The notes under the pieces were generated by a model. It was given only the letters and a program-made list of their open reading frames with translations, was not told the origin of the DNA and did no database searches. A DNA stretch of 64,000 nucleotides, taken from assembly GCA_021234155.1 (NCBI GenBank), contig JAJEKV010000053.1, forward strand, positions 4,926,488 through 4,990,487, read 5' to 3'. This DNA is from Isoetes taiwanensis. Its lineage: Eukaryota > Streptophyta > Lycopodiopsida > Isoetales > Isoetaceae. The translations under genes and the position numbers were made by a program. Below are positions 12,396 to 64,000 of the stretch, in pieces (position 1 is the first letter of the stretch; every line of letters starts with the position of its first letter).

Positions 12396-12399
12396 TAGG

Positions 12400-14584: not shown

Positions 14585-17500
14585 AAATCATATGATGGCA
14601 TTTCTTTTTACCCTAAGGTCGCTTCTGTCGCGAAAATTTCGCAAACATAAAAAACAGATGGAGGCGACCATACCGCAAGTTCCGGCTGCAAAAATCGGAT
14701 GGAGGCGGTTTTTTGGGGTGATTCGGGTGCACATGCTTTCGGATATCATCGATATCATGCCGATTCATGGCCGCCAACACTCCAATGAGAAAAAATCAAT
14801 GCGGGATATGTTTGGCAAGGAGTCAAGACGCGGCAATTGCTCAAGGTGAATACAATTTTCTTTGTATTCTATCGAAATAGGAGATAATCCGGGCAAAGTT
14901 ATAGCTATGCGGGTTTATGAATTCAAGATATTTATTATTTGGATTTCCATCTCTTGGTTACAAGCCCATTCCTTTTTCATAAGCAATGAGAGATAAGGTA
15001 TAGAATCTATTAGTTTCATGCAAAAATCCTTTGTTCTTTCTAGATTCTAGGATGTATTGCTCCTGTTCTATCCTCTGGAATGAAAATTTGATGCTATAAA
15101 ATGGACAGATCGGTATTTTGATAAATGTAGATCTGCCTTGCCACAGCATCAGAGCATCTATATAATGACAGAGGATATAGGCAAATCGAACTATATATTC
15201 AACCTGGTTCATTAATTTATTAGTTATTAAGTTATCTATTTGCAGAAATTAAGATAACATGAAGGAAAGTTGCAAATATAGTTTAATTTTTGTGGTGTAA
15301 TGAGAATTGACATCAAAGATTCTTGATGCTTGTGTGAAGGCAACTGCATCCATGCTGAAGTCTTTACTAAAACAGTAGAATATGACATTTTTGTGGGGAA
15401 CGCTATTGTTAATATGTATGGTAAGTGTAGATGTTTGGAATCTGCAAAAGGTATATTTGATAGAATGCCCGTGCGAAATGTGATTACGTGGACTGCCATG
15501 GTTTCAGCATATGCACAATATGGACATGGATATTGGAAAGATGCACTTCAACTCTTACAAGAAATGCAAGGAACAGACAATTCTCCAAGTGGAGTTACTT
15601 GGATCACCGTTTTAGATGCATGTGCTGGGCAAGCAAACCTACTTGGAGGCAAGTTTTTGCATGCTATTCTAGTGAGACGTAAACTGGATCTAGATATAAT
15701 CATATGGACTGCTAAACGATGCTTGCTTATTATTTAATTTCATACTTATTCGTAATGTTGCATCATGGAACACCATGCTTGCAGTTTTTTGTCTGGCAGA
15801 TGGTCATTTGTCTTGAGGTCACGAGAACTTCTTTATCGAATGCCATTGGAGGAGCTATGCCTAACAAGGTTAGCTTTATCAATGTTCTTTCTTCCCTGAC
15901 CATCTTTGGGGCTGGCCGTGCTTAATGCCTACTGTGAGAATGTATGATGATACGAAACATGGAAAGCATCTTTTGCAAAGTGTGCTCTTGAATATAATAA
16001 ACAGAGGATGCAACATATGTTTTGCTATTAAATATTTATGCATCATTATGCAGGTGGGGTATTATCTCTGAAATATAAAGAAGAATTGATTCCCATGTTA
16101 CTTTGACCCAGTGAAGGAGACGGTTTTTTTACAATTTACAGGGCCCTTCCCATTATTGCGTAATGAACTTCATCTTGCTGCTGTTTGACCGTTTTGTTGT
16201 GCATCTCAAAAGGTAGGCATTTACCTATATTAGAAGTAGCGAATAGTAACTTTTTGCCTTCCTAGTGTCACCTGCTTTTCAGGAATGTAATTGCTGATCG
16301 GGTCCCAATCCAGCATGAATTAGGTTATCGGCCTTGGTAATATCGACATAGTGGACATATGTTAGTAATGCATTTGAGATCAAGTGCATCTTTGGATGGA
16401 GCGGTTTATGGAGGGGTTTATAAAAACAACTGATTCTGAGGTTAAAGGTTTTGGTGCTGTTTATTCAAAATATGCTCAACATAATTCGTGAAATAGCCAA
16501 AGCACATGGGCAAGTGTGAAATGTTTTTTTAGACAGGGTAAACGGCCATGACTTTGCCATGTGGCATGCAGCTGGATTAAATTGCATAACATCAACAGCT
16601 ATAAATTTGTCGTTTGACATCTAACAAGTTGACTTACATACCTTGAAGAAGCTTGAGAGATGAACAGGAATGCTTTTCTTGCACTTGAAGAGATTGGGAC
16701 AAAGATATTTGCAAAGCATTCCTTGCCTTTGCTTTCTTAAGAAGAGCAAGAGGAGATGAGAAAATAAATAGGATGCAGTACTTACATAAAATGCAATTAA
16801 AAGCAGGTAGCATTGTGGCTCCCGAAAGCAGTCTAATGCTAGTATCAAATTTATCCTGAATTAAGAAAAACTTTCACCTATCTTATAGCCTTAGGCTCTA
16901 CGTATGGTTGCTGGACCCTATTGTTAGAGGTGCGTCGACATGTAAACAACCCTATCCATGCTATGATTGTATGCTATTGCATGCATGTCTTAGGCAAACA
17001 AAGAGCCCTACTTGTTTTGTAGCGGGTGCAAACTCATAAGCATTTCATCTGAATCCAGCTTGGATATTGGATACATTACTAAGATATCCCCTTTCACGCA
17101 TTTACCTTGACATTCTGAATCTCATTGTCTTATGGCTTCCTAGGAAATAATCAATAGAGACGAAATAGCTCTCATATATAGCCACCCCCCCTCCCCAAAA
17201 GAAAAAAAAGGGACATGCGTGCACCTAACCTTGTCACCACATTAATAACACAGCAATCATTTTAAACCTTAAATCAATTTTACACAATGATCATCTTATA
17301 CCTTAATCAATTCAACATTACAACAACATTTTTTGCATAACTTTGTGTTGGCCTACTACCACCTTGAGACTATATGATTCTAGAGGTGCTTTCCCAAACT
17401 TCACATGCATGAACACCATCCTTCAATGGTATTTTATAATGTTCTGGAGTTGAGTAAGAATGGTCATATTAAACGTTGCTACTCAGCTACCCCATTTGTG

Positions 17501-18680
17501 CAAGCTCATCAACACATTGCTGTGGTCAACTACAAATGTTCTTTGCCTTATCCATGCATCATGCATCAGCCCAAAAGTATACGCTAGCAATAGTGTAATC
17601 CACGAATAGTAATCTATGGGAATCTACACAATATCGCGAAGAATCTATACGAACCTTCATAAAGTCCTTGGGACCCAACTTCAGCTAAAATTGGAACACG
17701 CACCATAACAATAATGATGGCACCTTCATTGAATTTAAGGGAAACATCATGATTAACTTTATTTTCAAAAGTATTTAATGCACTACATTAGAGTTGTCTC
17801 GGTGATCATTTCTGGTTCATGGACCAGAAATGGTCCACCATACCCCCTGCCACTTAAACCCATATATCTCATAAGAGAAATTTTATTTTTAAAATATAAC
17901 ACCACTATTTGAGTCCTCACTTGATTTTAACGATATGTGAGAATTTCATGGCCACTGGATTCTCCTTTATGTTGGTATGATTGCTCAAACTTTAGAGAAT
18001 TTGGCAGTTTTTACAGCACTCTAGAACTACATTCTTCAATTTTCTAGCACAAAAGTGTCTAAACCTTGCTAAATATGAAAGTAATTGATATATTATGATA
18101 AAACATATCGATTTACATGTTTCCATGTTTGGCCACTATCATTTAATATCAATTGAAGTCGCAAAACCTTATTTTGCTTAAACATGCTGCATGAGGTTCA
18201 AGAATTATTTCTCTGTTATTATTACAAGTTTTGTCTTAATTTTTTTGATAATGAGTCCTTAACAAGACAAGCTATAATCCAAGGAATTTTTTAGATGTTT
18301 ATATGTTATATTAGTATCGTTATTAACTAAAAAATTATTGTACAAAATTCAAAATAAAAATATAGGTTAAAATGCTCCAATAAACCACATCTATAAGTCT
18401 CATAAGGGTAGTAAATGATACATTCTAATTAACTCTACATAGGAATTTACTTTATCAACATAAATATAGTGTAACTAGAGTATAACCATGCATTATCTAG
18501 ATCTAAACAAGATGTAATTTATCAGGATGAATACATTGAAAGGTTCAAAAGTGCATTGATTATACTCTTATAGGTCTAAAACACAACAATGGTGTATCTA
18601 GTGATGTTTATTGATGAATGGAGGACAATATCACGATGTTTAGCCATGACTTTAAATAAATAGATCATAAGACTTTCCGT
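14585..18680 (+). repeat. Array unit A (left-truncated)
   Basis: Starts within the spacer before the PPR fragment. At about 17743, GAATTTAAGGGAA joins directly to ACATCATGATTAAC. This removes the stretch that in unit B spans about 24560-27505 (A-tract, minisatellite, TATA box, GGAA run, LINE, copia). It keeps the second AT-rich block (17744-18680). This deletion differs from that of units C-E. Confidence 0.85.
15330..16078 (+). pseudogene. PPR protein fragment, unit A
   Basis: Open from a non-ATG codon to 15737 (135 codons) with GKCRCLESAKGIFDRMP and RNVITWTAMVSAYAQYG motifs of the PLS-type PPR family. After WTA the 32-bp deletion shifts the frame to a quick stop. The remaining part (to the ISEI-stop at 16078) reads on in other frames and is altered near 15,790-15,960. 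No start codon, targeting peptide or DYW domain. Intact relatives bind organellar RNA; this copy cannot make a normal protein as written. Confidence 0.85.
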
Positions 18681-20104
18681 ACCTGTTTTTCTAGCCCATC
18701 TAAAATATTAACTTATTGCACTATATTTCTCCCACGAACTTTTTAAATGGCACAATATATGATAAAAAGGAATATTGAGGTCCTTGGTGTGGTCTTATTA
18801 GGAAACAAAATGAAGAAACCTACTTACTTTCCACTATATATTATATACAAGATTTGAATATAAATAAGCATGAACTAATTTATAGATCCAGGATTAAACC
18901 AACTGGATTGAGAAAATTTCTCTATATATTTGCCCTGACTCTATTCATTTTGTCCCCTACAACGATATTATGAATTCTCATTTTCTATGAGATAATCTTT
19001 GAAATGTGTAAGTGGACTTCCTCATACATTCAAAGTAGCCCTTAACTACTTAATTTTTGTACTTCAATATCACCCTTTAGATAGACAATCTTTCGTAACC
19101 AACTAATGATGTCATATATAATGTGGTATATTTGAACTATATTCTAAACAACTGATTAAGATGATGATGTTTTTGACTTTTAAATGAGAGGTCATGTGGA
19201 TCAATAATCGGCATCGACATAGCAGTCTATCTTGATCTGTTTGAAGTTCATCCTCAAGGCACAAATCTAGAGATCAAATATGAAAAACATTTGATGATTA
19301 CTTGGAATTAATACTAAAAGTTTCAGCCCAAACCTAGATATTTTTTATTGATAGAGGGACTTATGAAATATTAATATCCTAAAGTTCAACTTGAGATTGA
19401 CTAAGGTAAAGAAGTTGTTGATTTAAAATGTACCTATGGACCAGTAATGGTCTTAAGTATAGAAACCTTTCTTGATTTATCATGATCATGCATTTTGCTC
19501 TTTTTCTTTACTTGTTTTTTCATTAGTCTCATATCCACACAAGCATTCATATATGATTTTTTCAATGATATATTATTTCAATAAATTTCCTTCAAAATTA
19601 ACAAATTAAACATCAATTAAAAGTCACTTAAGATTGTAACTATAAGTCAAAGCTGAACCTTCAAATTAAGTCAACAATTTTTTTTTATGCATGAACCAAT
19701 TAATCAACTTTTTATATGTCAAATTTGAAGTAAAAAATCATTTCCATGCAAAAATTGTAGAATTTTAATTGAAATAGCCTTCTGGAACCATTATTGATCC
19801 ACAAAAGATGTAAAACCTTTTGATTGGTTCGGCTATATCTTCCTTCCTAGACTTCAGATTGGAACAAGATTTTTTTTGTATTCATCCTTATCTCGTATAG
19901 AAAAGTACCATTACAATGAAAAAAAATAAAAATAAAGAGTCTTTTTATTGAGGCAGTTTTACATTATGTAAAGATGAGCAAATTAGACTTGATCCCCCTT
20001 GATTCACCTAAGCATAACTTCCAATTTTAGGATTATATGCATTTTTAACTATTTTTTCTGTGTAACATGACTGCCATATATTAATGTATACAAAGGGTTT
20101 AACT
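18681..20104. other. First AT-rich block, unit B
   Basis: Strongly AT-rich, without coding frames longer than 60 codons. The same block is at 31048-32559, 37751-39227, 44454-45939, 51058-52534 and 60895-62399. It has few CAG/CTG sites and is the best conserved part of the units. Function unknown. Confidence 0.6.
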
Positions 20105-20320
20105 GAATTTTATGCCGGCATATGCTTAGCATATGCCGGTGACTGCTCTGGCTGCTGCCTGTAAACTCTCGGTCATCCAGCCCCATTCCTTCGCAGGCGT
20201 GGCTATGGCGCAGCTCGACCCTTCTTCTTCTTCTGTGCTGAGGACGATCCTAGAGCCGAAACGTGCATGCATCATTTTAGGGGCAAAAGGGCATGATCCC
20301 ACATTATTTTCATAGATTGC
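20105..20320. other. Hairpin plus GC-richer block, unit B
   Basis: Opens with CCGGCATATG and its inverse CATATGCCGG separated by 4-6 bases, a strong small hairpin. A GC-richer stretch with a CTTCTTCTTCTTC run follows. Both strands are open for 60 codons or more in several units. No known protein matches, and the openness may simply reflect high similarity between copies. Confidence 0.5.
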
Positions 20321-22092
20321 AGATCTGCTATGCCAGGTCCGCTTTCCGGCGATAATGGGTCCATTTTGCCTCCTCTTGAATACTCTGGTTATAATGGGAT
20401 CGCCCTTCCCACTTGCTCATCCACATTCTTCTTTGCCCCTTTTTTGAACCATCTCTTTGTTTTTCTCCTGCTCAGAGGCCAGGTTGGATAATAGTTTGCA
20501 GAAATTGGAATCTATTTCAAGGTGGATGCTAAGCTCATTTGGAGCCCTTCATTGATGCGAAATGTAGCTTCTGGTGTTTTTTTTTGAAACAGAACATTGA
20601 AAACTTCTTGCCGAGAAAAAATTTGCCCGGTATTGCAAAATCTTATAGGTTTTCTTACGCACTTGGGTGGTCTCGATTGTAAGGGCCGATTGTTGGTGTT
20701 ACGGTTATACCATTCGGTTCTTCATTCGTTGCAATAGTTTTGCGATATAATGGCGTTAATCAGCAATAACTTTTTAGCATGAATCAATAAGTTGTGCGGC
20801 CGGTGGTGTTGCGACAGTGTTGTACTTGATGCTAAAAAACGATTCAAGACACATTGTTTTCTCTCTGTGCTTCGGCGGACTTTCATCCGATAAGGTACTC
20901 ACGTTGATAAGCGGTATTACGGAGAAACCCACCTTCTTTTGCTTATAATTTACGTCAAAATGATACGAAATAGCCTACAAGCGACCTACGAAGTGGGCAA
21001 AGCTCGAATCTCTTGCTTTCCATTTGGATGATCTAGTAATGATATACTAGAATATCTAATGTTCCTTGCATAAAAGCGGAGAAGGAGAAATATGCCTTTA
21101 TATCTTTGCACAAACTTTTTTATGTCTTTAGTTCGAATGCAATCTCTCTTTGCATTTTAAGCATGTGGGCGATGGGCAAAAGCATCCGGTTTTAAGTTAA
21201 AGATGCACGGATGATACTCATCTTTGCTTCACGATAGGGGCAATCCACTTGTTCAAAAATCATCTGCTTGGCTACATCGAGAATCAAGCGAGACATGATT
21301 TCTGAGAGCTCCACAAAGAAAATGCATGCGCCATTTTCATAGGCCATTCTTTCCGGTAAAATCATATGATGGCATTTCTTTTTACCCTAAGGTCGCTTTG
21401 CTGCAAATTTCGCACATAAAAAAGATGGAGGCGGCCATCTTGCAAGTTCCGGGCTGCAAAAATCAGATGGAGGCAGTTTTTGGGGTGATTGGTGCACTGG
21501 CGCTCGGATATCATCGATATCATGCCGATTCATGGCCGACAACACTCCAATCGAGAAAAATCAATGCGAGGATATGTTTGGCAAGGAGTCAGGAAACGGC
21601 AATTGCTCAAGGTGAATACAATTTTCTTTGTATTCTATCGAAATAGGAGATAATCGGCGGTATAGCTATGCGGGTTTATGAATTCAAGATATTTATTAGC
21701 TGGATTTCCATCTCTTGGTTCTCAAGCCCATTCCTTTTTCATAAGCAATGAGAGATAAGGTATAGAATCTATTAGTTTCATGCAAAAAATCCTTTGTTCT
21801 TTCTAGATTCTAGGATGTATTGCTCTGTTCTATCCTCTTCCGGAATGAAAATTTGATGCTATGAAATGGACAGATCGGTATTTTGATAAATGTAGATGCC
21901 TTGCCACAGCATCAGAGCATCTATATAATGACAGAGGATATAGGCAAATCGAACCATATATTCAACCTGGTTCATTAATTTATTAGTTATTAAGTTATCT
22001 ATTTGCAGAAATTAAGATAACATGAAGGAAAGTTGCAAATATAGTTTAATTTTTGTGGTGTAATGAGAATTGACATCAAAGATTCTTGATGC

Positions 22093-22844
22093 TTGTGTGA
22101 AGGCAACTGCATCCATGCTGAAGTCTTTACTAAAACAGTAGAATATGACATTTTTGTGGGGAACGCTATTGTTAATATGTATGGTAAGTGTAGATGTTTG
22201 GAATCTGCAAAAGGTATATTTGATAGAATGCCCGTAAGGAAATGTGATTACGTGGACTGCCATGGTTTCAAAGCATATGCACAATATGGACATGGATATT
22301 GGAAAGATGCACTTCAACTCTTACAAGAAATGCAAAGGAGCAGACAATTCTCCAAGTGGAGTTACTTGGATCACCGTTTTAGATGCATGTCTTTGGGCAA
22401 AGCAAACCTACTTGGAGGCAAGTTTTTGCATGCTATTCGGTGAGACGTAAACCGGATCTAGATATAATCATATGGACTGCTAAACGATGCTTGCTTATTA
22501 TTTAATTTCATACTTATTAAGTAATGTTGCATCATGGAACACCATGCTTGCGATTTTTGTGCAAACATGGTCATTTGTCTTGAGGTCCGAGAACTTCTTT
22601 ATCGAATGCCATTGGAGGGAGCTATGCCTAACAAGGTTAGCTTTATCAATGTTCTTTCTTCCTACAGCCATCTTTGGGGGACTACTTTGTGCTTAATGCC
22701 TACGTAATGAATGTGATGATCCGAAACATGGAAAGCATTTGCAAAGTGTGCTCTTGAATATAGCCAAACAGAGGATGCAACATATGTTTTGCTATTAAAT
22801 ATTTATGCATCATTATGCGGTGGGGTATTATCTACGAAATATAA
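22093..22844 (+). pseudogene. PPR protein fragment, unit B
   Basis: Same content as unit A with the 32-bp deletion, plus small indels in the first half (for example CCGTAAGGAAATG where unit C has CCGTGCGAAATG). These break the frame at residue 50. Most extra breaks sit at former CAG/CTG or neighbouring C/G sites and may be sequence error. Confidence 0.85.
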
Positions 22845-24896
22845 AGAAGAATTGATTCCCATGTTACTTTGACCCGATGAAGGAGACGGTTTTTACAATT
22901 TACTGGGGCCCTTCCCATTATTGCGTAATGAACTTCATCTTCTTTTCTTTGTTTGACCCGTTTTGTTGTGCATGTCAAAAGGTAGGCATTTACCTATATT
23001 AGAAGTAGTGAATAGTAACTTTTGCCTTCCTAGTGTCACACCTTTTCGGGGAATGTAATTGCTGATCGGGTCCCAATCCGGCATGAATTAGGTTATCGGC
23101 CTTGGTAATATCGACATAGTGGACATATGTTAGTAATGCATTTGAGATCAAGTGCATCTCTGGATGGAGCGGTTTATGGAGGGTTTATAAAACAACCGAT
23201 TCGAGGTTAAAGGTTTTGGTGCTTTTTATTCAAAATATGCTCAACATAATTCCTGAAATAGCCAAAGCACATGGGCAAGTGTGAAATGTTTTTTTTTAGA
23301 CAGGGTAAACGGCCATGACTTTGCCATGTGGCATGCAGCTGGATTAAGTTGCATAATATCAACAGCTATAAATTTGTCGTTTGGCATCTAACAGGTTGAC
23401 TTACATACCTTAAAGAAGCTTGAGAGATGAACAAGAATGTTTTTCTTGCACTTGAAGAGATTGGGACAGACATATTTGCGGCATTCCTTACCTTTGCTTT
23501 CTTAAGAAGAGCAAGAGGAGATGACAAAATAAATAAGAGCGAGTACTTACATAAAATGCAATTAAAAGCAGTTAGCATTGTGGCTCCCGAAGCAGTCTAA
23601 TGCTAGTATCAAATTTATCCTGAATTAAGAAAAACTTTCACCTATCTTATAGCCTTAGGCTCTACATTATGGTTCTTTGGACCCTATTGTTAGAGGGCGT
23701 CGACATGTAAACAACCCTATCCATGCTATGATTGTATGCTATTGCATGCATGTCTTAGGCAAACAAAGAGCCCTACTTTGGTATAATTGTTTTGTAGCGG
23801 GTGCAAACTCATAAGCATTTCATCCGAATCGGCTTGGATATTGGATACATTACTAAGATATCCCCTTTCACGCATTTACCTTGACATTCTGAATCTCATT
23901 GTCTTATGGCTTCCTAGGAAAGAATCAATAGAGACGAAATAGCTCTCACATATAGCCACCCCCTCCCAAAAAAAAAAAAAAAAAAAAGGGAGAGAAGAGG
24001 AAAAGAAAAAAGGCGGCTTCCATCTCCAACATGCGTGCACCTAACCTTGTCACCACATTAATAACACAGCAATCATTTTAAACCTTAAATCAATTTTACA
24101 CAATGATCATCTTATACCTTAATCAATTCAACATTACAACAACATTTTTTGCATCAACTTTGTGTTGGCCTACTACCACCTTGAGACTATATGATTCTAG
24201 AGGTGCTTTCCCAAACTTCACATGCATGAACACCATCCTTCAATGGTATTTTATAATGTTCTGGAGTTGAGTAAGAATGGTCATATTAAACGTTGCTACT
24301 CAGCTACCCCATTTGTGCAAGCTCATCAACACATTGCTGTGGTCAACTACAAATGTTCTTTGCCTTATCCATGCATCATGCATCAGCCCAAACGTATACG
24401 CTAGCAATAGTGTAATCCACGAATAGTAATATATGGGAATCTACACAATATCGCGAAGAATCTATACGAACCTTCATAAAGTCCTTGGGACCCAACTTCA
24501 GCTAAAATTGGAACACGCACCATAACAATAATGATGGCACCTTCATTGAATTTAAGGGAATCTCCATAGAATCTAAGAAAATCTCGCAAAATGTAAGAGA
24601 ATCTAAGGGAATCCTATAATAAGGAAATCTCATAAAAAGGGATCACTCCTGAAACATACTGAAACATACACACACTAGAATATGCACCGTAGGATCGATT
24701 AAAAAACTTGTATTAATATATTATTATTAATAAGCTACATAATCTGTGCAGAATAAATATAAATGTTGTACGAAATATGTGTGGATGTGTACGAATACGA
24801 AAATTTAAAAAAAAAACAAAGACGGCCCTCTCCTTTCATACACCATTGCCATTTGTCGAGACCAAAGTTAGCTAAAGTCAACATGCCAAGGTGGCT

Positions 24897-24944
24897 TACC
24901 ATTCTTTTAATATATTGATGACACAGTTCTTCAAAAAAAAAAAA
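24897..24944 (+). mobile_element. Tiny 5'-truncated L1-type LINE 3' end, unit B
   Basis: Only 36 bp (TTAATATATTGATGACACAG core) plus a 12-base A tail remain. It is framed by a 16-bp direct repeat ACATGCCAAGGTGGCT (24881-24896 and 24945-24960). TTAATATATTGATgacacag before poly(A) resembles plant L1 3' ends, and a long target duplication plus A tail fits target-primed reverse transcription. The direct repeat is also one minisatellite unit, which is an alternative origin. Confidence 0.5.
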
Positions 24945-25073
24945 ACATGCCAAGGTGGCTCAAACATGCCACCTAGGCTCCAACATGCCACCTAGGATCC
25001 AACATGACACCTAGGCCCAAACATGCCAAGGTGGCTCAAACATGCCACCTAGGCTCCAACATGCCACGCGGGG
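24945..25073 (+). repeat. 19-bp minisatellite, unit B
   Basis: Seven units of ACATGCCAAGGTGGCTCAA or ACATGCCACCTAGGCTCCA type, all opening ACATG(C/A)CA, the last one partial and ending GCGGGG. It lies directly upstream of a TATA box, so it could act as repeated promoter elements. Confidence 0.85.
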
Positions 25074-25099
25074 CAACCTATTTTGCATGTATGTAGCAG

Positions 25100-25107
25100 T
25101 ATAAATA
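25100..25107 (+). promoter_or_regulatory. TATA box, unit B
   Basis: TATAAATA followed by GCTTCTTCC, about 27 bp after the minisatellite. It matches the canonical plant TATA box and is kept unchanged in B-F, so each unit has a candidate promoter pointing toward the LINE/copia segment or the next unit. Confidence 0.45.
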
Positions 25108-25419
25108 GCTTCTTCCCATAAATAATTTGACAATCCTATATGTTTTAGCATTGCTCTTGTTACATCCAAAATGGTTCTATTTTTTTGCTCTGCTACTCCA
25201 TTTTGTTAAGGAAGGAAGGAAGGAAGGTACTTTTATCGTCCACGGAGACCAATCGGTCTATGGGACCCAATACAAAAACGCAGCAAGTGGATTACTGCCC
25301 GGATTAAAACCCCCGCCCAAGGGTTTCGAGGGAAAAACCGTGGCAAAGAATCACCCTGTGACAAAACCGCCCTAACATATAAAATGCGAAACACCCAAAT
25401 ATATACTGATCATGCACCA

Positions 25420-26759
25420 CAGGCGGCCCGGTGGGGCAAAGGTGACCTCGCAGTCCAATTACCTCTGAATGTATGACCCTGTGGCACGTGATCGACGGTG
25501 TGTTCATCGGCAAATGCAAGGGCAAGTCCTGGGCCGTACTAAGGGGCGTGATCCGCCGGATCGGTGAGCGTGGGCAACTCACGGAAAGTGTGAGACTCAT
25601 CCTCAATGGCACCCGTTTGACAAAGCGACAGAGCTCCGCCCCGGGCGGGGCTCCCCAATCCACCGCCTGCCTCGATCGCGAAGATGGTGGGCACTTGTAT
25701 GCGAATGGAGGCAATGAGAGTCGCGCTTTTGAAGGGCATTTGGGAACGCAGTAGAGCCGTGGACCCCGGGCTAACACGGGTTGATGTGCTCCTTGTAATG
25801 GGCCATTTTGACACGCTCTAGAGCCGTAGGGGTCCCGAGCTTGCCAAAGGAAACAAGCATCTAGGTACTCCAGTCATCACGATCGGCATTTGTGCCCCAC
25901 AATGACATCGTGCTCACCTCGCGACGTTCCATCTGGCGAACCAGCGATCTCTCTTACCCCTCCAACAGGGCCCTAAGCGGCTGCGGACCCATGGCCGCAG
26001 TGTAAGCGGGTCGCGGGCCGAGCATCACCCATAGTAACCACTTTACGAAAATAGGCGATGTGTCTATCAAGGGGCTGCCGTGAAGTGGCAAGAATCCGAT
26101 TTCTACTTGAGTGAGAATCGATAGGGGTGAAGGTTTCACCCAAGTGCCCGTGCCAAAAATGCCTTCGCACCTACTCCAAGTCATTCCGTGTCGCCAAAGA
26201 GCGGGTAGGCCCCAAACCTCGACCCGTCTGAAGGACGGAGCTCGACGAGAGCCTAAACGATGATGTGACCGATGGCCCCAATCATAGAGCTCTACGCACG
26301 GTGACTATTGTTCTCAGATGGCATAAAGCGCTTTCCGGCCTTTGTCACACCATAGCGGATAGACGCCTCCCAGCAGAGAGAGGAGGGGAACTCCACCCCT
26401 AGGTACTTGTAGGTGGGCGTGACGTCCACAGGCTGTCCCCGATATGTGAGTGCAGGAGGCATGGGGTGACGTGAAGAGGATATGAGAACCACCGGTCTTG
26501 GCAGATTGACGCCAAGCATGTCTCCAGAAACTCGAAAAAATGTGTCTAGGGCATCCAGTGAGATCGCATAGCAAGGGGGTGTGGGCAAGCAGGCCAACAT
26601 CGCCCGCGATAGATGAGTGGCGGATGACCCGGTGCAAAAGTCGTATGCCATCCCCCATGCTTTCGGTAAGCGGGGCTCTAACTGATCAATGTAGAGGCCA
26701 AAAAGTGTTGGCGAGAATACCTGCAAGTTAGTTGCCATTTGATTCCCCTTTTTAATCAA
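25420..26759 (-). mobile_element. LINE (non-LTR) reverse transcriptase remnant, unit B
   Basis: On the minus strand, 26759-26292 reads VFSPTLFGLYIDQLE (RT motif after the QG-C-LSP box), LDALDTFF and TYKYLGVEFPSSL, the thumb-side motifs of plant LINE polymerases. The catalytic Y-x-DD region (about 26,590) is damaged in this copy (IAGDVGLLAHTP). Further down (about 25,560-25,640), LCQTGAIEDESHTF matches the Cys/His C-terminal box of LINE ORF2. Several frame changes make it non-functional as written. No 5' part with endonuclease is present, and no target duplication was found. Confidence 0.8.
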
Positions 26760-27480: not shown

Positions 27481-27504
27481 CTTCTCTCAACTCCACTATC
27501 TCAA

Positions 27505-50701: not shown

Positions 50702-50757
50702 TACCATTCTTTTAATATATTGATGACACAGTTCTTCAAAAAAAAAAAAAAAAAAAA
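50702..50757 (+). mobile_element. L1-type 3' end relic, unit E
   Basis: Same insertion; the first two bases (AC) of the right direct repeat are lost into the A tail. Confidence 0.5.
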
Positions 50758-50883
50758 TGCCAAGGTGGCTCAAACATGCCACCTAGGCTCCAACATGCCA
50801 CCTAGGATCCAACATGACACCTAGGCCCAAACATGCCAAGGTGGCTCAAACATGCCACCTAGGCTCCAACATGCCACGCGGGG
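50758..50883 (+). repeat. 19-bp minisatellite, unit E
   Basis: Seven units, the first lacking its initial bases. Confidence 0.85.
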
Positions 50884-50909
50884 CAACCTATTTTGCATGT
50901 ATGTAGCGG

Positions 50910-50917
50910 TATAAATA
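50910..50917 (+). promoter_or_regulatory. TATA box, unit E
   Basis: TATAAATA; context as in unit D. Confidence 0.45.
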
Positions 50918-52534: not shown

Positions 52535-52760
52535 CCGGCATATGCCTAGCATATGCCGATGATGGCTACCGGGTAAGGGCGCGCACGTAAACTCTCGGTC
52601 ATCGGCCCCATTCCAGCGGCGTGGCTATGGCGCAGCTTCGACCCTTCTTCTTCTTACGTGGAGGGGGCGATCCTAGAGGCGAAGCGTGCATGTATCGTTT
52701 TAGGGGCAAAAGGGCATGATCCCACATTATTTTCATAGATTGCGGTCTGCTATGCAGTCC
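52535..52760. other. Hairpin plus GC-richer block, unit F
   Basis: Hairpin partly kept (CCGGCATATG, then CATATGCCGATG). About 8 bp of the CATTCCTTCGCAGGCG region is lost compared with unit D. Confidence 0.45.
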
Positions 52761-54517
52761 GCTTTCCGCGGCGATAATGGGTCCATTTTGCCTCCTCTTG
52801 AATAACTCGGTTATAATGGGATCGCCCTTCCCACTTGCTCATCCACATTCTTCTTTGCCCCTTTTTTGAACCATCTCTTTGTTTTTTCTCCCTTTCGGAG
52901 GCCCGCTTGGTAAAAGGTTGGATAATAGTTTGCGAGAAATTGGAATCTATTTCAAGGTGGATGCTAAGCTCATTTGGAGCCCTTCATTGATCGCGAAATG
53001 TAGCCACGGTGTTTTTTTTGAAGCAGAACATTGAAAACTTCTTGAGAAAAAATTTGCCCGGTATTGCAAAAATCTCATAGGTTTTCTTACGCTTGCCGTC
53101 TGGTCTCGATTGTAAGGGGCGATTGTTGGTGTTACGGTTATACCATTCAGGTTCTTCATTAGATTTGCAATAGTTTGCGGTATAATGGCGTTAATCGGCC
53201 AATAACTTTTTAGCATGAATCAATAAGTTGTGCGGCGGTGGTGTTGCGGCGGTGTTGTAGCGATGCTAAAGAACGATTGATACACATTGTTTACTCTCGT
53301 GCTTGCCGGACTTTCATCGATAAGGTACTCGCGCCGATAGCGGGTGATACGGAGAAACCCACCTTCTTTTTGCTTATAATTTACGTCAAAATGATACGAA
53401 ATAGCCAACAAGCGACCCTCTGAAGTGGGCAAAGCTCCGTCTCTTGCTTTCCATTTGGATGATCTAGTAATGATATACTAGAATATCTAATGTGCCTTGC
53501 ATAAAAGCGAGAAGGAGAAATATGCCTTTATATCTTTGCACAAACTTTTTTATGTCTTTAGTTACGAATGCAATCTCTCTTGCATTTTAAGCATGTGGGC
53601 GATGGGCAAAAAGCATCCGGTTTTAAGTTAAAGATGCACGGATGATACTCATCTTTGCTCGATAGGGGCAATCCACTTGTTCAAAAATCATCGCTTTGTC
53701 GGAATCAAAGCGAGACATGATTTGAGAGAGCTCACAAAGAAAATGCATCGCCATTTTCATAGGCCATTCTTTTCAGGTAAATCATATGATGGCATTTCTT
53801 TTTACCCTAAGGTAAACTTTTGCAAATTTCGGCAAACATAAAAGCAGATGGAGGCGGCCATCTTTGCGCAAGTTTCGGCTGCAAAAATCAGATGGAGGCA
53901 GTTTTTGGGGTGATTCGGATGCACATGCGCTCGGATATCATCGATATCATCGATTCATGGCCAGCAACACTCCAATCTGAGAAAAAATCAATGCAGGATA
54001 TGTTTGGCAAGGAGTCCGGGCGGCAATTGCTCAAGGTGAATACAATTTTGCTGTATTCTATCGAAATAGGAGATAATCTGGCGATTATAGCTATGCGGGT
54101 TTATGAATTCAAGATATTTATTATTTGGATTTCCATCTCTTGGTTCACGAAGCCCATTCCTTTTTCATAAGCAATGAGAGATAAGGTATAGAATCTATTA
54201 GTTTCATGCAAAAATCCTTTGTTCTTTCTAGATTCTAGGATGTATTGCTCTGTTCTATCCTCACGGAATGAAAATTTGATGCTATAAAATGGGCCGGTCG
54301 GTATTTTGATAAATGTAGATCTGCCTTTGCCACAACATCGAGCATCTATATAATGACGGAGGATATAGGCAAATCGAACTATATATTCAACTTTGGTTCA
54401 TTAATTTATTAGTTATTAAGTTATCTATTTGCAGAAATTAAGATAACATGAAGGAAAGTTGCAAATATAGTTTAATTTTTGTGGTGTAATGAGAATTGAC
54501 ATCGGCATTCTTGATGC

Positions 54518-55275
54518 TTGTGTGAAGGCAAGCTGCATCCATCTTTGAAGTCTTTACTAAAAGCAGGTAGAATATGACATTTTTGTGGGGAGCGCTATTG
54601 TTAATATGTATGGTAAGTGTAGATGTTTGGAATGCGCAAAAGGTATATTTGATAGAATGCCCGTGCGAAATGTGATTACGTGGGTTTGCCATGGTTTCAA
54701 AGCATATGCACAATATGGACATGGATATTGGAAAGATGCACTTCAACTCTTACAAGAAATGCAAAGGAACAGACAATTCTCCAAGTGGAGTTACTTGGAT
54801 CACCGTTTTAGATGCATGTCTTTGGGCAAAAGCAAACCTACTTGGAGGCAAGTTTTTGCATGCTATTACGGTGAGGCGTAAACTGGATCTAGATATAATC
54901 ATATGGACTGCTAAACGATGCTTGCTTATTATTTAATTTCATACTTATTAGTAATGTTGCATCATGGAACACCATGCTTGCGGTTTTTTGTGCAAACATG
55001 GGCTGTTGTCTTGAGGTCCTGAGAACTTCTTTATCGAATGCCATTGGGGAGCTATGCCTAACAAGGTTAGCTTTATCAATGTTCTTTCTTCCCTCTGACC
55101 ATCTTTGGGGCTATTTGTGCTTAATGCCTCTGAGAATGTATGATGATCTGAAACATGGAAAGCATCCCGCAAAGTGTGCTCTTGAATATAGCCAAGCGAG
55201 AGGATGCAACATATGTTTTGCTATTAAATATTTATGCATCATTATGCGAGGTGGGGTATTATCTCCGAAATATAA
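54518..55275 (+). pseudogene. PPR protein fragment, unit F
   Basis: Like unit E in its changes (GGCAAGCTGCATCCATCTTTG near 54,527-54,547), with the 32-bp deletion at about 54,909. IVNMYGKCRCLE is readable from 54,597. Frame breaks cluster at CAG/CTG positions. Confidence 0.85.
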
Positions 55276-57343
55276 AGAAGAATTGATTCCCATGTTACTT
55301 TGACCCGATTGAAGGAGGCGGTTTTACAATTTACAGGGCCCTTCCCATTATTGCGTAATGAACTTCATCTTGCTGCTGTTTGACCGTTTTGTTGTGCATC
55401 TCAAAAGGTAGGCATTTACCTATATTAGAAGTAGTGAATAGTAACTTTTTGCCTTCCTAGTGTCACCGCTTTTTCGGGGAATGTAATTCTTGATCGGGTC
55501 CCAATCCGGCATGAATTAGGTTATCGGCCTTGGTAATATCGACATAGTGGACATATGTTAGCAATGCAGTTTCAGATCAAGTGCATCTCTGGATGGAGCG
55601 GTTTATGGAGGGTTTATAAAACAAGCGATTCTCGAGGTTAAAGGTTTTGTCTTTGTTTATTCAAAATATGCTCAACATAATTGCTGAAATAGCCAAAGCA
55701 CATGGGCAAGTGTGAAATGTTTTTTTTAGACAGGGTAAACGGCCATGACTTTGCCATGTGGCATGCAGCTGGATTAAGTTGCATAACATCAACAGCTATA
55801 AATTTGCCGTTTGGCATCCAACAGGTTGATTTACATACCTTAAAGAAGCTTGAGAGATGAACATGAATGTTTTTCTTGCACTTGAAGAGATTGGGACAGC
55901 ATATTTGCAGGGTTCCTTACACTGCTTTCTTAAGAAGAGCAAGAGGAGATGAGAAAATAAATAGGAGCAAGTGCTTACATAAAATGCAATTAAGCGGTAG
56001 CATTGTGGCTCCCGAAGCAGTCTAATGCTAGTATCAGATTTATCCTGAATTAAGAAAAACTTTCACCTGTCTGTGTTCACTTTCACATTTGTCCTAATGT
56101 TGTGTATATAGCCTTAGGCTCTACGTATGGTTGCTGGACCCTATTGTTAGAGGTGCGTCGACATGTAAACAACCCTATCCGTGCTATGATTGTATACTTT
56201 GCATGCATATCTTAGGCAAACAAAGAGCCCTACTTTGGTATAATTGTTTTGTAGCAAATGCAAACTCATAAGCATTTCGTCTGAATCCAACTTGGATATT
56301 GGATACATTACTAAGATATCCCTTTTCACGCATTTACCTTGACATTCTGAATCTCATTGTCTTATGGCTTCCTAGGAAAGAATCAATAGAGGCGAAATAG
56401 CTCTCACATATAGCCCCCAAAAAAAAAAAAAAAAAAAGGAAGAGAAAAGAAAAAAAAAGGCTTCCATCTCCAACATCGTGCACCTAACCTTGTCACCACA
56501 TTAATAACACAAAGCAATCATTTTAAACCTTAAATCAATTTTACACAATGATCATCTTATACCTTAATCAATTCAACATTACAACAACATTTTTTGCATC
56601 AACTTTGTGTTGGCCTACTACCACCTTGAGACTATATGATTCTAGAGGTGCTTTCCCAAACTTCACATGCATGAACACCATCCTTCAATGGTATTTTATA
56701 ATGTTGCAGAGTTGAGTAAGAATGGTCATATTAAACGTTGCTACTCAGCTACCCCATTTGTGCAAGCTCATCAACACATTGCTGTGGTCAACTACAAATG
56801 TTCTTTGCCTTATCCATGCATCATGCATCAGCCCAAAAGTATACGCTAGCAATAGTGTAATCCACGAATAGTAATCTATGGGAATCTACACAATATCATG
56901 AAAAAGAATCTATACTGAACCTTCATAAAGTCCTTGGGACCCAACTTCACTAAAATTGGAACACGCACCATAACAATAATGATGGCACCTTCATTGAATT
57001 TAAGGGAATCTCCATAGAATCTAAGAAAATCTCTTAAAATGTAAAGAGAATCTAAGGGAATCCTATAATAAGGAAATCTCATAAAAGGGATCACTCCTGA
57101 AACATACTAAACATACACACACTAGAATATGCACCGTAGGATCGATTAAAAAACTTGTATTAATATATTATTATTAATAAGCTACATAATCTGTGCGGAA
57201 TAAATATAAATGTTGTACGAAATATGTGTGGATGTGTACGAATACGAAAATTTAAAAAAAAAACAAAGACGGCCCTCTCCTTTCATACACCATTGCCATT
57301 TGTCGAGACCAAAGTTAGCTAAAGTCAACATGCCAAGGTGGCT

Positions 57344-57400
57344 TACCATTCTTTTAATATATTGATGACACAGTTCTTCAAAAAAAAAAAAAAAAAAAAA
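57344..57400 (+). mobile_element. L1-type 3' end relic, unit F
   Basis: Same insertion, A tail about 21; direct repeat intact on both sides. Confidence 0.5.
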
Positions 57401-57529
57401 ACATGCCAAGGTGGCTCAAACATGCCACCTAGGCTCCAACATGCCACCTAGGATCCAACATGACACCTAGGCCCAAACATGCCAAGGTGGCTCAAACATG
57501 CCACCTAGGCTCCAACATGCCACGCGGGG
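57401..57529 (+). repeat. 19-bp minisatellite, unit F
   Basis: Seven units, same order as unit B. Confidence 0.85.
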
Positions 57530-57555
57530 CAACCTATTTTGCATGTATGTAGCAG

Positions 57556-57563
57556 TATAAATA
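57556..57563 (+). promoter_or_regulatory. TATA box, unit F
   Basis: TATAAATA; context GCAGTATAAATAGC as in unit B, where the short units have GCGG. Confidence 0.45.
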
Positions 57564-57859
57564 GCTTCTTCCCATAAATAATTTGACAATCCTATATGTT
57601 TTAGCATTGCTCTTGTTACATCCAAAATGGTTCTATTTTTTTGCTCTGCTACTCCATTTTGTTAAGGAAGGAAGGAAGGAAGGAAGGTACTTTTATCGTC
57701 CACGGAGACCAATCGGTCTATGGGACCCAATACAAAAACGCAGCAAGTGGATTACTGCCCGGATTAAAAAACCCCGCCCCGAAGGGTTTTCGAGGGAAAA
57801 ACCGTGGCAGCAATCAGCCTGCTGACAAACTGTCCTAACATATAAAATGCAGAAACACC

Positions 57860-59214
57860 CAAATATATCTGATCATGCACCACACCCGTAGTGCCTAATC
57901 GGTGAGCAGCCGGCGAGGGGCAAAGGTGACCTCGCGAGGTCCGATTACCTCTGAATGTATGACCCTGTGGGCGCGTCTTGGCGGTGTGTTCATCGGCAAA
58001 TGCAAGGGCAAGTCGGTACCGTACTAAGGGGGCGTATCGCCCCGGATCGGATTGAACTTATTTGGGCAACTCTGGAAAGTGTGAGACTCATCCTCAATGG
58101 CACCGTTTGACAAAGACGGACAGAGTCTGTCACCCGGGGGGCTCCCAATCCCACCTCCCGGCCTCGATGCGAAGATGGTGGGCACACAATGAATGGAGGC
58201 AATGAGTCTGCGCTTTTTTCGGGGGAACGAGGTAGAGGCTGTGGGCCCCGCTAACACGGGGTTGATGTGCTCCTTGTAATGGGCCATTTTGACCTGCTCT
58301 AGAGCGTAGGGGTCCCGAGCTTGCCAAGGAAACAAGCATCTAGGTACTCCGCAGTCATCCACGATCGGCCGACATTGCCCACCAGACGATCGGTGCTCAC
58401 CTGCGTTCCATCTGGCGAACCGATCTCTCTTACCCCTCCAACAGGGCCCTAAGCATTTGCGGACCCATGGCCCACAGTGTAAGCCCGGTGCGGGGAGCCG
58501 AGCATCACCCATAGTAACCACTTTCGAAAATAGGCGATGTGTCTATCAAGGGCTGCCGTGGCGGCAAGAATCCGGTTCCTGCAGCGAGAATCGATAGGGG
58601 ACTGAAGGTTTCATCCCAAGTGCCCGTGCCAAAATGCCTTACGCACCTGCTCCAAGTCATTCCAGGTCGCCAAAGAGGCGGCCGGGCCCCAAACCTCGAC
58701 CCGTCTGAAGGGCCGGGCTCGACCGAGCCAGGAACGGATGTATGTTGATGGCCCCAATCATAGAGCTCGCACGGTGACTATTGTTACGCATGGCATAAAG
58801 CTTTCCTTCTTTGTCACCCATAGCGGATAGAGCGCCTCCCAGTGAGAGAGAGGAGGGGAACTCCACCCCTAGGTACTTGTAGGTGGGCGTGGCGTCCACA
58901 GCCGCCCCCGATATGTGAGTCACGGGAGGCATGGGGTGGCGTGAAGAGGATATGAGAACCACCCCGGTCTTGGCGGATTGACGCATGTGTCGTACCCCGA
59001 CAAAATGTGTCTAGGGCATCCAGTGTGACCGCATAGCTTCGGGGTGTGGGCCAGGCCAACATCGTCATAGATGAATTTGGCGGATGACCAGTGCAAAAGG
59101 CCGTATGCCATCCCCATGCTCGATAAGCCGGGGCTCTAAGCGATCAATGTAGAGGCCAAAAAGTGTTGGCGAGAATACACCGCAAGTTAGTTGCCATTTG
59201 ATTCCCCTTTTTAA
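57860..59214 (-). mobile_element. LINE (non-LTR) reverse transcriptase remnant, unit F
   Basis: Copy of the unit B remnant. Here the catalytic region reads IYDDVGL (about 59,050), keeping the aspartates but missing the alanine of YADD. The GAIEDESHTFQSCPN box is clearer than in unit B (about 58,070-58,115). It differs from unit B at many CAG/CTG sites, while the adjoining copia piece is almost identical. Confidence 0.8.
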
Positions 59215-59937
59215 TCAATTTTTTAAAACTCCTGAAAGGTACTCTCCACCTCGGTTAGACCTCAAACATTTAATTTCCCTATTGGTTTTCCTCTCCATTT
59301 CAGCTTCAAATATTTTGAATGCTGTAAATGCTTGATCTTTGGATTTTAGAGTGTAGCATTTTGTTTTTAAAAGTGTAAAGTACTCCCTTCCATGCAAGCT
59401 TCTCACATTTAAGAATAGAATGGATCACAAAGATCCGTATACACAAGATCTAGAGCTTTGATCTGCCAAATACTAATCTAGTGTGCTTTCCTAGTTTATA
59501 TGTAATGCATGTAAATTGTTCATCACCTTCATCAAAAGCATCATTCTTTCTCTTTTTTATCAAGTATTTCACATTATTAGAATGTGCATGGCTCAATCTT
59601 TCATGTCAAATTTTTATGGATGGCAAAGATACAACATTAGCCCAATTTGTCAGAGCAGCATTATGGAAACTAAAAAGATTGCCCATACGTTTTGCCAAAA
59701 ATCTTATTTCATTATTGTGAAACATTTTATGCTTATCAAAACACACTCTGTAACCTAAGTCAACCAACTGACTGATAAAAATAAGATTTTTAACAATCTT
59801 TGGAACACACAATACATAACTCACTACGTTTCCTTGCAAATCAAATCACATTCCAGCTTCCTCCACTCTCTCATTAGCACATAGCGAGAAACTTTGGCAC
59901 TTCCTTGTTTAAGCTGATCAGGCTACTTGACTATGCT
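59212..59937 (-). mobile_element. Ty1/copia remnant, unit F
   Basis: Nearly base-for-base the same as in unit B, including both open segments (59839-59606 and 59406-59215) and the junction with the LINE. One short change lies near 59,320-59,350. Confidence 0.85.
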
Positions 59938-60894
59938 TCTCTCAACTCCACTATCTGAAACATCATGATTAACTTTATTTTCAAAAGTATTTAATGCACT
60001 ACATTAGAGTTGTCTCGGTGATCATTTCTGGTTCATGGACCAGAAATGGTCCACCATACCCCCTGCCATTTAAACCCATATATCTCATAAGGGAAATTTT
60101 ATTTTTAAAATATAACACCACTATTTGAGTCCTCACTTGATTTTAACGATATGTGAGAATTTCATGGCCACTGGATTCACCTTTATGTTGGTATGATTGC
60201 TCAAACTTTAGAGAATTTGGCAGTTTTTACAGCACTCTAGAACTGCATTCTTCAATTTTCTAGCACAAAAGTGTCTAAACCTTGCTAAATATGAAAGTAA
60301 TTGATATATTATGATAAAACATATCGATTTACATGTTTCCATGTTTGGCCACTATCATTTAATATCAATTGAAGTCGCAAAACCTTATTTTGCTTAAACA
60401 TGCTGCATGAGGTTCAAGAATTATTTCTCTGTTATTATTACAAGTTTTGTCTTAATTTTTTTGATAATGAGTCCTTAACAAGACAAGCTATAATCCAAGG
60501 AATTTTTTAGATGTTTATATGTTATATTAGTATCGTTATTAACTAAAAAATTATTGTACAAAATTCAAAATAAAAATATAGGTTAAAATGCTCCAATAAA
60601 CCACATCTATAAGTCTCATAAGGGTAGTAAATGATACATTCTAATTAACTCTACATAGGAATTTACTTTATCAACATAAATATAGTGTAACTAGAGTATA
60701 ACCATGCATTATCTAGATCTAAACAAGATGTAATTTATCAGGATGAATACATTGAAAGGTTCAAAAGTGCATTGATTATACTCTTATAGGTCTAAAACAC
60801 AACAATGGTGTATCTAGTGATGTTTATTGATGAATGGAGGACAATATCACGATGTTTAGCCGACTTTAAATAAATAGATCATAAGACTTTCCGT

Positions 60895-63800
60895 ACCTGT
60901 TTTTCTAGCTCATCTAAAATATTAACTTATTGCACTATATTTCTCCCACGAACTTTTTAAATTGCACAATATATGATAAAAAGGAATATTGAGGTCCTTG
61001 GTGTGGTCTTATTAGGAAACAAAATGAAGAAACCTACTTACTTTCCACTATATATTATATACAAGATTTGAATATAAATAAGCATGAACTATTTATAGAT
61101 CCAGGATTAAACCAACTGGATTGAGAAAATTTCTCTATATATTTGCCCTGACTCTATTCATTTTGTCCCCTACAACGATATTATGAATTCTCATTTTCTA
61201 TGAGATAATCTTTGAAATGTGTAAGTGGACTTCCTCATACATTCAAAGTAGCCCTTAACTACTTAATTTTTGTACTTCAATATCACCCTTTAGATAGACA
61301 ATCTTTCCTAACCAACTAATGATGTCATATATAATGTGGTATATTTGAACTATATTCTAAACAACTGATTAAGATGATGATGTTTCTGAGTTTTAAATGA
61401 GAGGTCATGTGGATCAATAATCGGCATCGACATAGCAGTCTATCTTGATCTTCTTTAGTCATAGCTTTTCATATTTTTTCTTGGTTCATCGTGCATTTCT
61501 TTCTTAACTTTGGGAAGCTTTGAAATATGGTGTTTGAAGTTCATCCTCAAGGCACAAATCTAGAGATCAAATATGAAAAACATTTGATGATTACTTGGAA
61601 TTAATACTAAAAGTTTCAGCCCAAACCTAGATATTTTTTATTGATAGAGGGACTTATGAAATATTAATATCCTAAAGTTCAACTTGAGATTGACTAAGGT
61701 AAAGAAGTTGTTGATTTAAAATGTACCTATGGACCAAGAATGGTCTTAAGTATAGAAACCTTTCTTGATTTATCATGATCATGCATTTTGCTCTTTTCTT
61801 TACTTGTTTTTCATTAGTCTCATATCCACACAAGCATTCATATATGATTTTTTCAATGATATATTATTTCAATAAATTTCCTTCAAAATTAACAAATTAA
61901 ACATCAATTAAAAGTCACTTAAGATTGTAACTATAAGTCAAAATTTGAACCTTCAAATTAAGTCAACAATTTTTTTTTTTTTATGCATGAACCAATTAAT
62001 CAACTATTTATATGTCAAATTTGAAGTAAAAATCATTTCCATGCAAAATTGTAGAATTTTAATTGAAATAGCCTTACGGAACCATTATTGATCCACGTAA
62101 AGGCGTAAAACCTGTTTTGATTGATGACTATATCTTCCTTCCTAGACTTGATTGGAACAAGATTTTTTGTATTCATCCTTATCTCGTATAGAAAAGTACC
62201 ATTACAATGAAAAAAAATAAAAATAAAGAATCTTTTTATTGAGGCGCTTTTACATTATGTAAAGATGAGCAAATTAGACTTGATCCCCCTTGATTCACCT
62301 AAGCATAACTTCCAATTTTAGGGTTATATGCATTTTTAACTATTTTTTCTGTGTAACATGACTGCCATATATTAATGTATACAAAGGGTTTAAGCTGAAT
62401 TTTATCTTAGGCATATGCCTAGCATATCCGGGTGATCGCCAACCTGGCCGCTGCGCTGTAAACTCTCGGTCATCGCCCCATTCAGCCGGCGTGGCTATGG
62501 GCGCGGCTCGACCCTTCTTCTTCTTCTGGCCGAGGGCGATCCTAGAGCCGAAAAGCGTGCATGTATCGTTTTAGGGGCAAAAGGGCATGATCCCACATTA
62601 TTTTCATAGATTGCAGATCTGCTATGCCAGGTCCGCTTTCCGGCGATAATGGGTCCATTTTGCCTCCTCTTGAATACTCTGGTTATAATGGGATCGCCCT
62701 TCCCACTTGCTCATCCACATTCTTCTTTGCCCCTTTTTTGAACCATCTCTTTGTTTTTCTCACGCTTTCCGGAGGCCCCGCTTGGTAAAAGGTTGGATAA
62801 TAGTTTGCGAGAAATTGGAATCTATTTCAAGGTGGATGCTAAGCTCATTTGGAGCCCTTCATTGATCACGAAATGTAGCTTCGGTGTTTTTTTGAAACGA
62901 GAACATTGAAAACTTCTATTGCCGAGAAAAAATTTGCCCGGTATTGCAAAAATCTCATAGGTTTTCTCGCGCTGCTAAGGGTCTCGATTGTAAGGGCCGA
63001 TTGTTGGTGTTACGGTTATACCATTGAGTTCTTCATTAGATTTGCAATAGTTTGCGTGTATAATGGCGTTAATCAGCAATAACTTTTAGCATGAATCAAT
63101 AAGTTGTGCGGCGGTGGTGTTGCGGCGGTGTTGTAGCGGTGCTAAAGAACGTATTCAAGACACATTGTTTACTCTGCATTAGCCCGGCGGACTTTCATCG
63201 ATAAGGTACTCACGCGCGAGACGCGGTATTCGGAGAAACTCACCTTCTTTTGCTTATAATTTCGTCAAAATGATCTGAGAAATAGCCTACAAGCGACCTA
63301 CGAAGTGGGCAAAGCTCGAGTCTCTTGCTTTCCATTTGGATGATCTAGTAATGATATACTAGAATATCTAATGTTCCTTGCATAAAAGCGGAGAAGGAGA
63401 AATATGCCTTTATATCTTTGCACAAACTTTTTTATGTCTTTAGTTTGAATGCAATCTCAACCATTCTTCCAGGTAAATCATATGATGGCATTTCTTTTTA
63501 CCCTAAGGTAAACTTGCTGCAAATTTGGCAAACATAAAAGCAGATGGAATGCCATATCGCAAGTTCCGGCTGCAAAAATCAGATGGAGGGCGTTTTTGGG
63601 GTGATTCGGTGCACATGTGATTTCCGGATATCATCGATATCATGCCGATTCATGGCCGGCAACACTCCAACCGAGAAAAATCAATGCGGGATATGTTTGG
63701 CAAGGAGTCCGGGCAACGGCAATTGCTCAAGGTGAATACAATTTTCTTTGTATTCTATCAAAATAGGAGATAATCTGCGGCAAATATAGCTATGCGGGGT

Positions 63801-64000
63801 TTATGAATTCAAGATATTTATTAATTTGGATTTCCATCTCTTGGTTCTGAAGCCCATTCCTTTTTCATAAGCAATGAGAGATAAGGTATAGAATCTATTA
63901 GTTTCATGCAAAAATCCTTTGTTCTTTCTAGATTCTAGGATGTATTGCTCCTGTTCTATCCTCTGGAATGAAAATTTGATGCTATAAAATGGACAGATCG
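60895..64000 (+). repeat. Array unit G (cut by window end)
   Basis: AT-rich block, hairpin, GC-richer block and spacer are present. About 190 bp found in the other units is missing at 63,458 (CAATCTC joined to AACCATTCTTCC). The PPR fragment would begin beyond the window. It keeps the 30 bp missing from D-F. Confidence 0.85.
62400..62625. other. Hairpin plus GC-richer block, unit G
   Basis: Hairpin damaged on both arms; the CTTCTTCTTCT run and the CCTAGAGCCGAAA box are still clear. Confidence 0.45.

Follow-up and report, generated by a model that had tools for sequence, protein, structure and literature searches.

In a Klebsiella benchmark, about 70% of the consensus errors left by the Oxford Nanopore Technologies (ONT) base callers then current lay in the Dcm motifs CCAGG and CCTGG (Wick et al. 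2019, PMC6591954). The inner methylcytosine of these motifs falls within CAG/CTG. We analyzed a 64-kb stretch of the Isoetes taiwanensis genome (contig JAJEKV010000053.1; the window), most of which is taken up by a tandem array that self-BLAST resolved into seven units of ~6.7 kb, each with a copy of a pentatricopeptide repeat (PPR) gene. We found that the units disagree mainly around CAG and CTG, a CHG context (H being A, C or T), that the same error recurs in the 5S ribosomal DNA (rDNA) of the assembly, and that damaged and intact sites form a patchwork. The array itself is real, but the small differences among its units are probably for the most part spurious. It is quite probable that the caller misread 5-methylcytosine (5mC) in CHG (and CG) contexts and that the near-identical repeats escaped short-read correction. 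As with the Dcm errors (PMC6591954), the training data would have lacked 5mC in CAG/CTG, and the resulting errors would outlast the long-read consensus; unlike them, the errors described here affect CAG/CTG in general as well as CG, and they occur in a plant, where short reads lacked unique placement.

General ONT callers are less accurate on plant DNA and species-specific models improve on them (Ferguson et al. 2022, PMC9749173). That study likewise suggests plant methylation as a likely cause of the loss of accuracy, but CHG, CAG and CTG are absent from its main text, whereas the motif, the products and the places of the errors could be resolved here. Modifications on which a model was not trained have similarly been described to lower consensus quality, with amplification and reference-based correction as remedies (PMC10687267). 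Systematic miscalls specific to repeats are also known from telomeres; unlike the present case, they concern telomere repeats in many organisms and on many platforms, and the accessible part of that paper mentions no CHG motif (PMC9414165). Among the papers that a literature search listed, none was recognizable from its title or the opening of its abstract as a report of consensus errors specific to CHG in finished assemblies of plants. The study of modification-mediated errors reportedly dealt with bacterial isolates.

The published I. taiwanensis assembly was built from a ligation library read on an R9.4.1 flow cell and called with Guppy 3.1 flip-flop, using miniasm, racon, pilon and Bionano data, and LR_Gapcloser was run twice with pilon polishing in between; the same source describes many PPR genes in this genome (PMC8566536). 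This R9.4.1/Guppy 3.1/racon/pilon pipeline likely underlies the sequence analyzed here, an assembly of 1,658,258,908 bases in 1,110 contigs. When plant DNA is read on an R9.4.1 pore and called by an early flip-flop model, CHG-methylated cytosines (in CAG/CTG above all, but also in CCG and CG-dense motifs) would produce a current unfamiliar to the caller, which would often put a CpG in place of the motif (CAG to CGG, CTG to CG or CCG) or write a run of CAAAG/CTTTG. With the same error in most reads, the change would survive the long-read consensus, and short-read polishing would correct it only where reads could be placed, so that correction of near-identical tandem repeats would be patchy. The array, the 5S rDNA and the likely pipeline support the proposal of an earlier note on this DNA that base calling failed systematically, with CHG motifs at the centre of the error.

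Units A to F were aligned after removal of their inserts, and unit G was added for the seven-unit counts. The six-unit alignment contained 271 clusters of variable columns, of which 200 were complex or indel clusters and 71 single-base. A CAG/CTG was present in at least one unit in 120 of the 200 complex or indel clusters, compared to 38.1 at random positions (ratio 3.11), with CCG/CGG a close second (75 against 23.8 expected, ratio 3.09); the 71 single-base clusters comprised 52 transitions and had CAG/CTG outside their top eight trinucleotides. Each unit served as the reference in turn, a majority consensus being biased since errors can be in the majority. With unit C as the reference, CAG/CTG was discordant in 434 of 751 cells (0.578, as compared to 0.113 overall) and CCG/CGG came next (63/217, 0.290). 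CAG/CTG also ranked first with unit A, with the majority consensus, and in the pooled seven-unit count over sites intact in at least two units (506/1129, 0.448), where CCG/CGG was second (269/627, 0.429) and ATA/TAT last (87/2706, 0.032). The columns within 5 positions of a CAG/CTG in any unit (2,373 of 7,020) held 1,537 of the 2,126 minority cells, a rate of 0.0949 as against 0.0187 elsewhere. When the array was compared with the genes at 3.4-10.3 kb, as had been suggested, CAG+CTG amounted to 9.6-23.1 per kb in the units (Table 1) versus 26.2 in the genes; the values were 21.2 for bases 1-3400 and 17.5 for 10.3-14.6 kb. CpG and CAG+CTG both stood at 0.63 of expectation in the array, and two 3.35-kb segments covering most of the clean unit C had CpG at 0.43-0.49 and CAG+CTG at 0.83-0.90.

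The spectrum of changes was determined from 168 of 200 CAG/CTG sites and written on the CAG strand. The 498 disrupted cells read CGG in 85 cases, CAA in 72, TAG in 8 and another trinucleotide in 180, with a deletion in 82 and an insertion in 71. If symmetric CHG sites were deaminated, TAG and CAA should turn up about equally often. The ratio of eight CAG>TAG to 72 CAG>CAA (CTG>TTG) indicates some apparent C-to-T change, but it is strongly asymmetric and thus unlike symmetric deamination. The claim that the changes are not C-to-T held for the bulk, which consisted of CGG, other trinucleotides and indels, while the CAA cells limit it. In a second count of 503 disrupted cells, a CpG was gained nearby in 267 and lost in 3, and a CAAA, CAAG or AAAG run was found in 113. 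For 13 other motifs a CpG gain accompanied 0.12-0.48 of the disrupted cells, the higher values occurring where overlap with CAG/CTG or CG was possible. A caller trained with CpG methylation would presumably write a CpG on meeting 5mC.

We used the 5S rRNA genes of the same assembly, which are short, as a proxy for independent accurate sequence; because they are strongly constrained, they constitute an independent check. One 5S alignment kept 44 copies after six BLAST rows (short or cut by the locus end) and duplicates from overlapping loci were dropped, and that of the main array on contig C13 kept 65 copies, 11 of 76 rows being dropped because their alignments spanned less than about 101 of the 119 bases. 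Among 50 matches in C13, GTTCTGATGG was read as GTTCGATGG in 29 (CG) and as GTTCCGATGG in 2 (CCG), and was intact in 19. The control GGAGGTCACCCATCC (GGAGGTC-A-CCCATCC) was intact in 71 of 71 matches, the exact-flank patterns overlooking copies with damaged flanks (50 matches at the CTG site versus 71 at the control). Similarly, the stretch GGTATGACCGCAC was intact in 58 of 58 matches, and the ten bases GAGGTCACCC were unchanged in all 65 aligned C13 copies; in this stretch and in the control the cytosines stand in the CHH context only. The four CAG/CTG sites of the gene were broken in 163 of 260 cells in these 65 copies, of which five equalled the intact sequence. Three of the four sites were broken or intact together (r 0.43-0.73) while the fourth was independent (r 0.01-0.13), and adjacent copies were alike (lag-1 r 0.31, p 0.006). 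Genome-wide, the pattern matched 90 places, of which 50 lay in C13; the other 40 read CTG in 37 cases, CAG in 1 and a longer form in 2. The 5S copies of an array on contig C907 were damaged too. Much of the apparent diversity of the tandem repeats of this genome is probably error and not evolution.

The long terminal repeat (LTR) pairs of eight out of eight dispersed Copia elements were 98.5-100% identical, with 26 differences, and these limited controls support the view that the error is rare in dispersed copies. The loci were CpG-depleted (observed/expected 0.19-0.55), and CAG/CTG stood at 0.95-1.07 of the expected value in all but one, L016, where it was 0.75; with CAG/CTG near expectation in seven loci, no CHG-focused mutation process is visible there.

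Errors were concentrated in the methylation motif in both the array and the 5S rDNA, with CG motifs affected also and at times equally, which points to 5mC as the probable trigger of the miscalls. The earlier note had named CMT3-type enzymes as those that would methylate such sites, and a candidate chromomethylase-like gene (L027, C1026:7440000-7446000) had exons resembling the Pfam families BAH, Chromo and DNA_methylase in order on one strand. The DNA_methylase exon scored above the Pfam cut-off (E 4.1e-9) while BAH (E 0.0012, 19.2 bits, cut-off 30.8) and Chromo (E 2.2e-5, 24.7 bits, cut-off 25.1) fell below theirs, and the exon that presumably holds methylase motif I gave no DNA_methylase match. 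Nearly the same chromomethylase-like peptides occur at a second locus (L029, C61:38500-44500), the Pfam scan having covered L027 only, and the small contig with L029 may be a haplotig. There are further DNA_methylase loci elsewhere in the genome; we take these to be DRM-like and MET1-like by their motifs, and the MET1-like piece that was scanned had no Pfam match.

Several observations weigh against an error of CHG-methylated sites as the full account. In the tabulation of mismatches per trinucleotide that had been proposed, one to three CG-containing trinucleotides stood above CAG/CTG when B, D, E or F was the reference; this ranking would be expected if many CG in these four units are themselves false calls. 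Away from CAG/CTG, CG trinucleotides were still discordant at 0.17-0.28, partly through ordinary C-to-T change (CGC>CGT, CGA>TGA). The claim that the units differ almost only at CAG/CTG was thus correct as to where most minority cells lie and too strong in its "almost only", and since CG contexts are hit as well, the error is not exclusive to CHG. Between the inserts of B and F, which are 90% identical, CAG/CTG was only third (47/109), behind CGC (52/96) and CCG (68/134). Damage depended on context at GCAGA (12/61) and CCAGG (6/21), where it was lower, although the cells are few. Real divergence is also present, as seen in the 71 simple single-nucleotide variants and in 32 bases missing in six of the seven units. 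The stretch 10051-13400, outside the array, had CAG+CTG at merely 0.56 of expectation, and loss of CAG/CTG alone is therefore insufficient as a screen. In the 5S rDNA, three of the 40 matches outside C13 lacked the CTG and two of these carried a new CG, while one CAG site was intact in 42 of 65 copies, compared to 13, 19 and 23 for the other three. Per base, discordance in the 65 copies was 0.222 for CAG/CTG, 0.223 for CCG/CGG, 0.310 for other CG and 0.122 for the rest, the last including bases shifted by adjacent errors. These similar or higher rates at CG suggest that the damage marks 5mC-type contexts generally and not CAG/CTG alone. By trinucleotide, AGA/TCT in both 5S alignments and GCC/GGC in that of 44 copies outranked CAG/CTG, partly through overlap with damaged sites. 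The Copia loci were picked for open frames of more than 1,300 residues, a choice that favours clean sequence, and CAG/CTG discordance was nevertheless raised between their LTRs (8/174 versus 0.012 overall), with single CGG, CCG, CG and CGC products; this excess may be residual error.

Intact CAG/CTG sites occurred in runs along the units, with 454 switches between intact and damaged as compared to 609 +/- 14 when labels were permuted within sites (183 sites, 2,000 permutations). Over 124 window-units, the intact fraction fell as indels lying far from CAG/CTG and CG became more frequent (rho -0.37, p 2e-5), and over 96 window-units it likewise fell with discordance near CG (rho -0.35); plain substitutions showed no such relation (rho -0.06). 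As dirty patches carry more distant indels without more substitutions, patches differ in how many read errors they retain overall, which is typical of partial polishing, and pilon presumably made the clean and dirty patches; differences between units would then mainly record polishing. Patches that differ in methylation could contribute to the patchwork, yet such a difference is not required to explain it. The suggestion that the error map is a methylation footprint was weakened by the runs and by these correlations, and so was a pure methylation map, distant indels rising with CHG damage while substitutions stay flat. A looser form of the idea, in which local CAG/CTG loss and CpG gain in unpolished arrays of finished nanopore plant assemblies are a fossil record of CHG methylation, readable without raw signal and showing which repeats carried the mark in the sequenced plant, we regard as rather doubtful.

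Another origin of the patches, in which the dirty stretches are unpolished reads inserted by LR_Gapcloser and not assembly that pilon could not correct, is rather unlikely. The two LR_Gapcloser runs with pilon between them (PMC8566536) and the richness of dirty patches in indels would fit it, but the 1.9% discordance away from CAG/CTG resembles that of a consensus more than that of one R9.4.1 read, and the patches switch within units and between 5S copies.

We think it quite unlikely that the nanopore errors arise from k-mer signal ambiguity around CAG/CTG and CG and not from methylation. Telomere repeats are often miscalled by nanopore callers (PMC9414165), and an ambiguity of this kind would agree with the far less affected 5S CAG site and with the two 5-mers (GCAGA, CCAGG) that lie off the mean. 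When the sites were pooled by one flanking base, however, CAG/CTG damage was 0.43-0.48 on either side, and this flat response suggests a motif rather than one pore k-mer. The telomere miscalls are said to result from similar current profiles. In addition, the affected set (CAG, CTG, CCG and CG) corresponds to the symmetric 5mC contexts of plants while CHH-only 5S stretches were untouched, and the miscalls often create a CpG. A k-mer rule for the damage was disfavoured, as mean damage is independent of a single neighbouring base, the GCAGA and CCAGG exceptions resting on few cells.

That the units are truly diverged old duplicates with mutation focused on methylated CHG, by deamination or a RIP-like process, is very improbable, since the mostly transitional single-base differences (52/71) and the CpG depletion of the Copia loci, which fits deamination at CG, are set against the asymmetric spectrum with its bulk of CGG, other trinucleotides and indels, against identical changes in the constrained 5S rRNA genes, and against LTR pairs and CAG/CTG near expectation in all Copia loci but L016.

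With 5mC miscalling and incomplete polishing as the preferred explanation, users of the assembly would overestimate how far its tandem copies have diverged, annotate frameshifts that do not exist and find a gain of CpG along with a loss of CAG/CTG. The PPR copies of units A, B, E, F and G have additional 1-5 base indels relative to unit D that would be annotated as frameshifts. The 32-base stretch in the PPR frame, kept by unit D alone, is on the other hand probably a real difference. The damage extends to a standard reference gene, as the few intact 5S copies in C13 demonstrate. Divergence dating, pseudogene calls and CpG-based methylation proxies are therefore unsafe in both tandem arrays examined, and others need checking. 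The joint signature of CAG/CTG loss, CpG gain and coupled indels could be used to screen other native-DNA R9 plant assemblies.

The features of the window are listed in Table 1. All nine strings quoted in the earlier note were present, the first of them at 40,042 and not 40,043 and again at 69,675 outside the window, but its unit letters had no consistent match to units A-G.

Table 1. Features of the window, with the state of CAG/CTG sites (200 sites) in each array unit
Feature	Position	Strand	CAG/CTG intact/scored	Intact fraction	CAG+CTG per kb	Remarks
Cytochrome P450 gene, outside array	8573..10243	+				two open frames; part of 3.4-10.3 kb comparison region
Array unit A	14584..21358	+	100/190	0.53	17.4	insert 17751-18677 between its two parts; self-BLAST, alignment
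Array unit B	21359..33821	+	87/199	0.44	13.1	insert 25240-31050
Array unit C, cleanest copy	33822..40489	+	154/199	0.77	23.1	
ATAGACAGGTATTCTGGAG	40042..40060	+				first example of a clean site in the earlier note
Array unit D	40490..47189	+	97/199	0.49	14.6	first part cleaner, end dirty
Open PPR reading frame, unit D	41222..41995	+				257 residues; PPR repeats, E motif
Array unit E, most damaged copy	47190..53777	+	62/198	0.31	9.6	
Array unit F	53778..63473	+	80/191	0.42	12.5	insert 57700-60891
Array unit G, start only	63474..64000	+	112/199 (whole unit)	0.56	17.0	runs on to 70117 in extended coordinates

The first 14.6 kb of the window are non-array sequence and include the P450 gene. The 24 kb beyond the end of unit G (70117) contained no additional full unit, and when the whole genome was searched with one half of a unit, these seven and, among the places scored, only partial copies elsewhere were detected. 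To the right of the array, CpG was at 0.08 of expectation over 6.9 kb (70118-77050 in extended coordinates; contig about 4996605-5003537) and CAG+CTG at 1.10. The insert copies 17751-18677 and 59967-60891 were 99.4% identical, whereas array units are about 93% identical; the insert copies 25240-28014 and 57700-60469 were 78-89% identical over their first 1.6 kb and 96-100% over the remainder. There were two self-complementary inverted repeats, one beside the array start (13862-14322, 68%) and one within unit B's insert (30169-30656, 77%), the latter with relatives near 78.5 kb in extended coordinates. Sequence in bases 1-1312 is locally duplicated in tandem with a period of 197 bases, and there are additional diverged copies.

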